Assembly: GCF_020687695.1 (NCBI RefSeq)
Contig: NZ_JAJEWL010000010.1
Location: forward strand, 1-64,000
Length of the DNA stretch: 64,000 nt
Reading direction: 5' to 3'
Source of the DNA: Pusillimonas sp. MFBS29
GTDB taxonomy: Bacteria; Pseudomonadota; Gammaproteobacteria; Burkholderiales; Burkholderiaceae_B
Positions 6,652 through 45,018 of the stretch are shown here, in pieces; the stretch's first letter is position 1; each line of letters starts with the position of its first letter. The translations under genes and the position numbers were made by a program. The notes under the pieces are model-generated. The model was not told where the DNA came from. It saw only the letters and a list, made by a program, of their open reading frames with translations, and did not search any database.

Positions 6652-7017
6652 TGGTGGAGTCGGGGGGAATTGAACCCCCGTCCGCAAGCCCTCTGCAGGC
6701 AGTTCTACATGTTTATTCGGTTCACTTTAAGTTTTAACCTTGGATCATGCCAACCGACAGGCCCTTCCTTGGCGATTCACATTAATTTAAGAACATGCTG
6801 AGTGACCCAACATATTCCGATTCTTTGTAAGTGACGCTGCTGTAGGTTTTACCCTACCTAACCCAAAGACAAATTAGTGCAGCGGCTTACCGCATTAAGC
6901 GGCTAAAGCGAAACGCTCGTCGTTGGCGTTTATAGTTTTCCAGTGGATTTACGAGCTTACTGGTGCTCGACATGCCCTGCTCTGTTTCGCGACCCACGTC
7001 GAAGCCGGATCGACCCC
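6652..7017 (-). ncRNA. ssrA: Transfer-messenger RNA (tmRNA)
   Basis: 366 nt. tmRNA rescues ribosomes stalled on broken mRNAs and tags the product for degradation. The 5' end GGGGTCG pairs with CGACTCC next to the encoded CCA (3' end at 6652). The T-arm (GGGGGTTCAATTCCCCC) and the tag reading frame at 6927-6895 are clear. The -10 box TATAAT is 10 bases upstream of the 5' end. The gene is transcribed toward the Tn7-like element, whose edge is 30 bases past the CCA. Confidence 0.96.
6895..6927 (-). CDS. ssrA: tmRNA proteolysis tag (ANDERFALAA)
   Basis: Ten sense codons from GCC at 6927 down to the TAA at 6895 encode ANDERFALAA. The final LAA is the degradation signal read by ClpXP-type proteases. 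The tag is of the kind found in Bordetella and relatives and supports placing the organism in Alcaligenaceae. Confidence 0.95.
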   Translation of the reverse strand, partial: ANDERFALAA

Positions 7018-43624: not shown

Positions 43625-44719
43625 TTATACCTTGCTGCCGATCAGGGCATTTGCTGATTGCGTGACACTCTGACGGCGCTTCGTGACCGCCTGCGCCAGG
43701 CGCCCGAGCACCTGCTCTGAGGTTTCCCAGTCTATGCAGCCATCGGTAATGCTCTGACCATAAGTCAGGGCTTGCCCGGGGACCAGATCCTGACGGCCGC
43801 CGACCAGATTGCTTTCTATCATGACGCCGAAGATACGCTCGTCGCCCGCTTCCATCTGTTTGGCAACATCTTCAAGTACCAGCGGCTGGTTCTTGTAGTC
43901 TTTGTTGCTGTTGGCATGACTGGAGTCGATCATGATACGTGGACGCTGCCCGGCCTTGATCAGTGCCTGGCACGACGCCTCGACGCTGGCCGCATCGTAA
44001 TTGGGTGCCTTGCCGCCACGCAGGATAAGGTGGCAGTCTTCGTTGCCGGCGGTCGACACAATCGCCGAATGGCCGCCTTTGGTAACCGACAGGAAGTGAT
44101 GGGACTGCGATGCCGCCATAATGGCATCAATGGCAATCTTGGTGTCGCCGCCGGTGCCGTTCTTGAAGCCTACCGGGCAAGACAAACCCGACGACAGTTC
44201 GCGGTGGACCTGGCTTTCTGTGGTGCGCGCGCCGATGGCACCCCAGGAAACCAGGTCAGCAATGTATTGCGGAGTGATCATATCGAGGAATTCACAGCCG
44301 GCGGGCAAGCCCAATGCGTTGACGTCGATCAGCAATTCGCGTGCCGTACGCAAGCCCTGATTGATATTGAAGCTGCCATCCAGGCCGGGGTCGTTGATCA
44401 AGCCCTTCCAGCCTACGGTGGTGCGGGGTTTCTCGAAATACACGCGCATGATGATTTCAAGCTCGCCCTTGAAGCGTTCGCGCTGCTCCACCAGGCGCTT
44501 GGCGTATTCAATGGCGGCAACCGGGTTATGAATGGAACATGGCCCGATCACAACGACCAGACGGTCGTCGGAACCATGCAAAACATTGTGTACGGCGCGG
44601 CGGGCGTCATGGACCGTAGACGAGATCCCGGTAGTGCAGGGAAACTCGCGCATGATATGCGCAGGTGGGCTCAGTTCCTTGATTTCTCGGATACGTAAAT
44701 CATCAGTGTTGTACGTCAC
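43625..44719 (-). CDS. aroG: 3-deoxy-7-phosphoheptulonate (DAHP) synthase, AroG type
   Basis: 364 residues. It condenses phosphoenolpyruvate and erythrose-4-phosphate, the first step of the aromatic (shikimate) pathway. Class I motifs are VVIGPCSIHNP (about 57), YFEKPRTTVGWKGL, GARTTESQVHRE, GFKNGTGG and IDSSHANSNKD. The length and N-terminal extension match the feedback-regulated AroF/G/H type. It starts at GTG 44719, with GGAG 8 bases upstream. It is preceded by a Phe-rich leader peptide and an intrinsic terminator, so expression is probably set by phenylalanine through attenuation. Confidence 0.94.
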   Translation of the reverse strand: MTYNTDDLRIREIKELSPPAHIMREFPCTTGISSTVHDARRAVHNVLHGSDDRLVVVIGPCSIHNPVAAIEYAKRLVEQRERFKGELEIIMRVYFEKPRTTVGWKGLINDPGLDGSFNINQGLRTARELLIDVNALGLPAGCEFLDMITPQYIADLVSWGAIGARTTESQVHRELSSGLSCPVGFKNGTGGDTKIAIDAIMAASQSHHFLSVTKGGHSAIVSTAGNEDCHLILRGGKAPNYDAASVEASCQALIKAGQRPRIMIDSSHANSNKDYKNQPLVLEDVAKQMEAGDERIFGVMIESNLVGGRQDLVPGQALTYGQSITDGCIDWETSEQVLGRLAQAVTKRRQSVTQSANALIGSKV

Positions 44720-44757: not shown

Positions 44758-44793
44758 CAAAAAAAGCCGCCTAGCTTTGCTGGCGGCTTTTTG
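44758..44793 (-). terminator. Attenuator terminator in the aroG leader
   Basis: The minus strand reads AAAAAGCCGCC, a short loop, GGCGGCTTTTTTT: a textbook intrinsic terminator placed before, not after, a gene (39 bases upstream of the aroG start, 17 after the leader peptide stop). The arm CCGCCAGC (44786-44779) can alternatively pair with GCTGGTGG (44843-44836) in the leader coding region, with one G-U pair, forming an antiterminator. Confidence 0.85.
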
Positions 44794-44809
44794 GGAATTT
44801 GATTCTTTT

Positions 44810-44896
44810 TTACTGCGTACAGCGTTTCCCTTCCTCCACCAGCGGTTTTGGAAAAGCAAAAAAATAAAAAAAGAAAAACGGGATTGCGCGGTACAT
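44810..44896 (-). CDS. Phe-rich leader peptide of aroG (attenuation)
   Basis: 28 codons from the ATG at 44896 to TAA at 44810. The core is PFFFFYFFAFP: seven Phe and one Tyr codons within eleven, followed by a charged tail. By analogy with the pheL and pheM leaders of enterobacteria, slow translation of the Phe run when Phe-tRNA is short would free the downstream GCTGGTGG segment to prevent terminator formation. No ribosome-binding site is visible. A promoter with TTGGCA (-35) and TAGAGT (extended -10) would start transcription about 2 bases before the ATG, so the leader may be translated leaderless. Confidence 0.75.
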   Translation of the reverse strand: MYRAIPFFFFYFFAFPKPLVEEGKRCTQ

Positions 44897-44904
44897 GGTA
44901 GGTA

Positions 44905-44933
44905 ACTCTAGCACAGAGTTTTCCTCCTGCCAA
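44905..44933 (-). promoter_or_regulatory. Candidate aroG promoter
   Basis: TTGGCA (44933-44928) and TAGAGT (44910-44905) are separated by 17 bases, and TGC precedes the -10 (extended -10 type). Predicted transcription start is near 44898, just before the leader peptide ATG. Confidence 0.5.
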
Positions 44934-45018
44934 TAAAAACTCGGGCTGCCGAGCCTATCGATTACCCTTGCATCCCCCGGCATAAAGGCAAGCCGTCCAT
45001 ATCATTACACTAATATTA

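Follow-up and report, generated by a model that had tools for sequence, protein, structure and literature searches.

A predicted phenylalanine-codon attenuator upstream of aroG in Pusillimonas and related Proteobacteria

The window is a stretch of 64,000 nucleotides from Pusillimonas sp. MFBS29, and its minus strand carries aroG, which encodes a type I DAHP synthase (Table 1). The Phe-regulated DAHP synthase of E. coli is among the closest solved structures to the aroG product, which has a serine at the position aligned to Ser211 of E. coli AroG. A search of plasmids for aroG gave no matches. A short leader ORF ends 90 nt upstream of the aroG start codon (GTG), and between the two is an intrinsic terminator, whose stem (44761-44792) begins 17 nt past the leader’s stop codon. 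A sequence-only reading of this DNA had placed the leader, this terminator, and an antiterminator pairing upstream of aroG, and we found all of them where it had put them when we re-read the minus strand. It had also described seven Phe codons and one Tyr codon in the stretch PFFFFYFFAFP of a 28-codon frame. The leader does contain these, along with a further Tyr at codon 2, outside that stretch. aroG thus follows a short ORF whose codon run specifies an amino acid that is made by the gene’s own pathway and is predicted to regulate it. Elsewhere in the window, we noted a tmRNA gene (6652-7017, minus strand) with the tag ANDERFALAA.

Table 1. Features of the aroG leader region, with positions in the window.
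Feature	Position	Strand	Basis
Promoter: -35 TTGGCA (44928-44933), 17-nt spacer, extended -10 TGcTAGAGT (hexamer 44905-44910)	44905..44933	-	Pattern match
Leader ORF, MYRAIPFFFFYFFAFPKPLVEEGKRCTQ, 28 codons, from ATG at 44896 to a stop ending at 44810	44810..44896	-	Sequence; aromatic run conserved
Aromatic codon run, FFFFYFFAF	44852..44878	-	Sequence; codon make-up of 91 distinct family leaders
Segment 2, GCTGGTGG, putative antiterminator 5' strand within the leader ORF	44836..44843	-	Sequence; pairing in relatives
GGGAA, 5' strand of predicted second antiterminator helix	44826..44830	-	Fold of the window leader only
TTCCC, 3' strand of predicted second antiterminator helix	44793..44797	-	Fold; TCCC is common there in alignment A1
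Segment 3, CCGCCAGC, 5' arm common to antiterminator and terminator	44779..44786	-	Sequence; pairing in relatives
Intrinsic terminator (segments 3:4) and U tract	44759..44792	-	Fold, -20.0 kcal/mol; pairing in relatives
aroG, type I DAHP synthase, 364 amino acids, GTG start	43625..44719	-	Alignment and comparison with solved structures

Segment 2 can pair with segment 3 along its whole length, including one G-U pair, as the sequence-only reading had proposed. The stretch that forms the antiterminator, with its GGGAA:TTCCC helix, has a predicted folding energy of -21.9 kcal/mol, versus -20.0 kcal/mol for the terminator. If the window leader is folded alone, segment 2 is predicted to fold back onto the Phe-codon stretch (also -20.0 kcal/mol). 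In these predicted folds, the 1:2, 2:3, and 3:4 pairings have the classical layout of an attenuator. A generic scan for promoter and terminator patterns did not list the minus-strand terminator ahead of aroG, presumably because of a bulged A.

To search for such devices, we used a detector for an aromatic-rich short ORF that ends shortly before a terminator. The first version was positive for just one of the 62 window ORFs of at least 200 amino acids, namely aroG; among 945 upstream regions with shuffled dinucleotides, it gave 3 positives. The aroG protein had a match in 117 of 121 genomes of the host family (its own genome included); 110 of these 117 were used for the upstream analysis, and 109 had at least 300 nt of upstream sequence. 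We detected a leader and terminator upstream of 96 of these 109 genes with the second version, which accepts any start and 12 to 60 codons. The first version, which was used for the chance controls, excluded open frames of more than 75 codons and so gave 90 of 109. The device was missing at the other 13 genes. For 12 of the 13 (G014, G022, G026, G060, G084, G105, G107, G048, G101, G007, G078, and G120), no terminator was detected either; five of these (G007, G048, G078, G101, and G120) are genomes of 0.8 Mb.

Beyond the family, we examined named aroG loci (the best 80 of 587 relatives, a set that overlaps with the family set) and found the device in 64 of the 80. These include Dyella, Rhodanobacter, and Pseudoxanthomonas, as well as the Alphaproteobacteria Devosia, Kaistia, and Bradyrhizobium. 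We also built a covariance model (R1) from 79 family leaders. It matches 99 of the 121 family genomes, with the training leaders matching by construction, and 97 of its 101 matches are found 15-154 nt before aroG. The remainder comprise a second copy in G004, a copy at a contig end in G027, a match in G072 that is on a different contig, and, in G111, a terminator alone. (The second copy in G004, at L356:523-665, is a full leader and terminator ahead of a frame that, by eye, resembles part of MnmA.) In its own genome, the leader is the one strong match (E = 4.6e-27), and the runner-up (E = 0.24) corresponds to its terminator read on the opposite strand.

In a sample of the phylum, R1 matches 42 of 398 genomes (41 besides the host’s own). 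Among the 20 matches outside the family for which we had aroG coordinates, 19 lie directly upstream of aroG, as judged by eye; the one in G241 does not. Full-length matches include G210 (6.4e-16, Xanthomonadaceae) and G728 (7.6e-8, Rhizobiales), with the taxa assigned by similarity to named loci. Judged by sequence, then, homologous leaders extend to Xanthomonadales and Rhizobiales. The device thins with distance: it is present at 22 of the 30 best order-level loci (some of which are from the host family), at 6 of 20 more distant order-level genes, and, by eye, at 10 of 40 genes from across the phylum, with none among the other families of Gammaproteobacteria in that 40-gene sample. None of 19 second copies of DAHP synthase in family genomes (50-61% identity; 19 of the 26 listed, L331-L349) has such a leader. 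In the stretch around aroG of a Xanthomonadaceae-like genome, we also saw tandem glycine riboswitch aptamers (L308:393-586).

The sequence-only reading had suggested comparing the leaders of relatives, and both the run of aromatic codons and the alternative pairing turned out to be conserved, with compensatory changes. Across 91 distinct family leaders, 85.5% of the codons in the run have T at position 1 and 95% have T or C at position 3, a bias that is partly built in because the frame was selected for its aromatic codons. The swapping of Phe, Tyr, and Trp codons between species is stronger evidence. The last aromatic codon is 10 nt from segment 2 in 69 of 80 leaders. Searches of NCBIfam and Pfam with six of the leader peptides identified no family.

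For the pairing, we aligned 79 of 89 distinct leaders (alignment A1; duplicates and any leaders of over 190 nt had already been removed). Left out were L030, L116, L118, and L156, which are close relatives of rows that were kept, and six divergent leaders with a poor segment 2 or none (L153, L180, L181, L186, L191, and L192), which are absent from the pair counts as well. Segment 2 (GCUGGYGG) pairs with segment 3 in 97.0% of cells, and pairing falls to 13-61% if the partner is slid. Three pairs of the antiterminator have changed on both sides (5 cells), and none of 500 shuffles was as good, with no correction for ancestry. Among the compensatory changes observed, CACTGGCGG occurs with CCGCCAGTG in L166 and L171, and CCTGGCGG occurs with CCGCCAGG in L065, L069, L094, and L098. 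The terminator is paired in 97.6% of cells, and its two-sided changes do not go beyond those of shuffles (42 of 500 were as good).

We also anchored the segments independently of the alignment, which was possible for 141 of the 160 detected leaders; the other 19 lack the GGYGG anchor, and many of them have a shorter GGCG match. Among 98 distinct triplets, three positions next to the anchor pair in 76, 78, and 65 cases, as compared to shuffle means of 69.5, 73.2, and 48.7 (0, 8, and 0 of 2000 shuffles were as high, again uncorrected for ancestry). Two of the five flanking positions gave no covariation signal. Overall, an antiterminator that is mutually exclusive with the terminator is backed by covariation that is uncorrected for ancestry.

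A simpler idea is that the terminator just stops stray transcription from upstream, or yields a small RNA, and that the U-rich tract does not represent codons. The long U tract would fit with this, as would the terminator being stronger than the antiterminator at equilibrium (see below). But Phe codons have given way to Tyr and Trp codons in relatives, the bases at positions 1 and 3 of the run are biased in the way expected of aromatic codons (even if this is partly built in), and the antiterminator covaries. We consider this explanation to be very improbable.

How the leader is expressed can be considered from the promoter. The promoter-like sequence TTGGCA-17-TAGAGT ends 8 nt before the leader’s ATG. 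Of the 96 family leaders, 93 have a TAnnnT hexamer whose end is 5-9 nt from the downstream ATG, and in 90 the hexamer is preceded by TG; in shuffles of the same 70 nt, these rates are 16.5% and 1.3%. Of the 93, 84 also have a -35 element with at least three of six matches. Shine-Dalgarno sequences of the kind that we searched for precede the ATG in none of the 96. So, the -10 element is near enough for transcription to start at the ATG, and there is no Shine-Dalgarno site. Because transcription would begin at or beside the ATG, the leader is probably translated from a leaderless message, and an aside in the sequence-only reading to this effect gains support. Among the named leaders (family members included), 31 of 64 fit the leaderless pattern and 2 have a site like a Shine-Dalgarno sequence. 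In at least seven Massilia/Telluria-like leaders (L062, L068, L072, L074, L077, L078, and L083), the best promoter match is farther away, ending 24-25 nt before the ATG. We also noticed a small terminator-like hairpin (CTCGGCAGCCCGAG then TTTTTATT, at 44932-44953 on the minus strand) that overlaps the -35 region; by eye, it was not seen in the genus relatives L004-L006.

Alternatively, in this species the leader could be an ordinary ORF of 34 codons that is translated from a Shine-Dalgarno sequence and a GTG start, with a promoter farther upstream; attenuation would work unchanged. An AGGAGG (44923-44928) does lie 8 nt upstream of a GTG that is in frame (44912-44914), but this AGGAGG overlaps the -35 element, and the GTG belongs to the motif TGTGnTA. 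Across relatives, this GTG can be in any of the three frames with respect to the ATG (29, 25, and 24 of 78, with the first being in frame), which implies that the -10 element is kept as promoter DNA. Similarly, up to 40 of the 96 family leaders have a bare AGGA before the ATG, but it is supplied by the TAGGAT variant of the -10 element, and none of the 96 has a longer Shine-Dalgarno sequence there. The hexamer takes forms such as TAGAGT, TAGCAT, and TAACAT, of the type TAnnnT; this is the variation expected of a -10 element and not of a Shine-Dalgarno sequence. We think that translation of this kind is unlikely, and we prefer the leaderless start.

Given the leader, the terminator, the alternative pairing, their conservation, and the position of the promoter, we infer the start site, translation, stalling, and Phe response as follows. 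Transcription would begin at or beside the leader’s ATG, giving a leaderless message. If charged tRNA-Phe is scarce, a ribosome would stall in the Phe run and leave segment 2 free to pair with segment 3 as it emerges, and RNA polymerase would continue into aroG. If phenylalanine is abundant, the ribosome would move on, and segment 2 would be either masked or paired back onto the leader; the terminator would form from segments 3 and 4, and transcription would end near 44758. The leader would very probably let the cell shut off aroG when phenylalanine is abundant. We are highly confident that a ribosome-mediated transcription attenuator controls aroG, and we predict that it responds to phenylalanine. 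The sequence-only reading saw here the full logic of translational attenuation; the conserved run and the covarying pairing bear out the logic of attenuation, while “translational” should give way to ribosome-mediated control of transcription.

Folding predictions for the relatives bear on the order of these steps. If a ribosome is placed at the beginning of the run and the RNA stops short of segment 4, the predicted fold contains the antiterminator in 95 of 96 family leaders and 61 of the 64 named ones. After segment 4 has been added, the terminator is predicted to win at equilibrium despite the stalled ribosome (95 of 96 family leaders and 62 of 64 named leaders), so the switch would have to be kinetic. 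Ribosome-free folding covered 80 of the 91 distinct leaders. In 78 of these 80, the leader by itself is predicted to sequester segment 2 in an upstream (1:2) protector fold, yet adding segment 3 gives a predicted antiterminator in 58 of the 80. The protector fold is therefore not clearly dominant in these predictions, and no other step of the model is as weak.

The attenuator could be real and its released RNA or peptide could additionally act in trans. Passages of PMC7298713 describe such roles for the trp leader of Sinorhizobium meliloti (rnTrpL/peTrpL), which is likewise leaderless, and the C terminus of our leader peptides is often conserved as PLxEEG. This conservation is accounted for by base pairing, as the codons for the C terminus take part in it, and the peptide differs where the pairing motif occupies another reading frame. 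An added role in trans seems quite unlikely to us.

Leader codons also tend to match the amino acid that probably inhibits the enzyme, as judged from the residue at the position of E. coli Ser211. This residue is Ser in AroG, which is Phe-sensitive, and Gly in E. coli AroF, which is annotated as Tyr-sensitive. The rule that Ser or Gly sets the feedback specificity rests on these two E. coli enzymes and on studies of the yeast and Neisseria enzymes, which reportedly back it. A term search of portions of PMC6435475 and PMC4735112 found no mention of the rule. Per 12 codons, the 108 distinct leaders of Ser-type enzymes average 5.0 Phe, 1.9 Tyr, and 0.2 Trp codons, versus 2.4 Phe, 2.7 Tyr, and 1.0 Trp codons for the 25 distinct leaders of Ala-type enzymes. 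All 25 of the latter have one Trp codon among the Tyr and Phe codons. Gly-type enzymes have two distinct leaders, each with 2 Phe and 5 Tyr codons, which probably represent one event. (Three leaders for which the enzyme’s residue was unread are omitted. Entries without a detected leader comprise 20 Ser-type, 2 Ala-type, 2 Gly-type, which are one genome counted twice, and 21 unread, of which 19 are second copies.) There are counter-cases: 20 of the 108 Ser-type leaders contain Trp codons, and in 7 the Tyr codons equal or outnumber the Phe codons. Also, the Ser-type Xanthomonadaceae-like loci L309 and L311-L313 retain mixed leaders, so lineage explains part of the match.

Both of these enzyme types, Gly and Ser, occur together in five genomes that belong to the Mesosutterella genus group (a name based on identity to L106). 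The two copies are separated by about 330 nt in G553, G530, and G540 and by more in G516 and G548. The Ser-type copy has a Phe-run leader in all five, and the Gly-type copy has a Tyr-rich leader (AYYYYGFF; DFYYYGYYLY) in four of the five, with none found in G540. At the loci with two DAHP synthase genes (L106, L327, L328, L325, L326, and L324 with L329), a Tyr-run leader precedes the first gene (not found in L325) and a Phe-run leader precedes the second. In this group, a duplication may have split the enzyme type and the leader together. The broader proposal, that leader codons and allosteric site are matched and co-evolving so that the same amino acid attenuates the gene and inhibits the enzyme, strikes us as evenly balanced. 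Natural variation can test whether attenuation and enzyme inhibition of one gene share one amino acid.

The aroG attenuator is new and widespread, although attenuation of DAHP synthases is already known. It would place the entry to the shikimate pathway under an RNA switch in much of the host family, with homologous sites in Xanthomonadales and Rhizobiales, and it offers a conserved, putatively leaderless leader peptide. In E. coli, pheL, a Phe-run leader with a terminator, precedes pheA. The window leader resembles it and the Rfam family RF01859 (Phe_leader) in having such a run and a terminator, but their target is pheA and not a DAHP synthase gene. The window’s score against RF01859 is weak (30.1 bits, below the gathering score of 55), and none of 20 relatives’ loci reaches the gathering score. 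More broadly, the switch is absent from Rfam: at the gathering thresholds, no attenuator family was found in the whole window or those 20 loci.

In the open-access literature, to which our search was largely confined (most subscription journals lay outside it), we found no recognised description of an aroG leader in these Proteobacteria. The portions of PMC3766115 and PMC5343134 that we consulted do not describe such an attenuator, and a term search of the main text of Naville and Gautheret (PMC2965389), as far as it was available, found no aroG, aroF, or DAHP. The sequence-only reading had known of no attenuation of a DAHP synthase in this lineage; for the lineage, the search described above turned up none either, but the kind of regulation has precedents in the AroR leader of Corynebacterium glutamicum and uORFC-13-1 of Acholeplasma.

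AroR, upstream of aroF, is said to have been described originally by Neshat and colleagues in 2014. According to passages in PMC11802643 and PMC4046766, it is a Phe-Tyr-Phe leader that attenuates this gene in response to the availability of Phe and not Tyr. As compared by these published descriptions, AroR is like the window leader in being a leader peptide with Phe and Tyr codons that attenuates a DAHP synthase gene, but its host is an actinobacterium and three aromatic codons are named. For uORFC-13-1, upstream of aroF, attenuation was proposed (PMC8632094, in part). It shares with the window an upstream ORF with Phe codon(s), an adjoining terminator, and a DAHP synthase gene, but as described there it has a ribosome binding site and at least one Phe codon, and it is from Acholeplasma and environmental sequences only. 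Within Proteobacteria, attenuators were predicted ahead of the Vibrio operon aroAI-alpha_Y > tyrA (Merino database, as cited in a passage of PMC1173090). These also concern a DAHP synthase gene, but in another operon and lineage, and that passage names no leader peptide. Finally, the trpL attenuator of S. meliloti has a leaderless leader mRNA that starts at the AUG (passages of PMC7298713 and PMC10117765). It thus resembles the window leader in its probable mode of translation, but it has Trp codons and its target is trpE(G).
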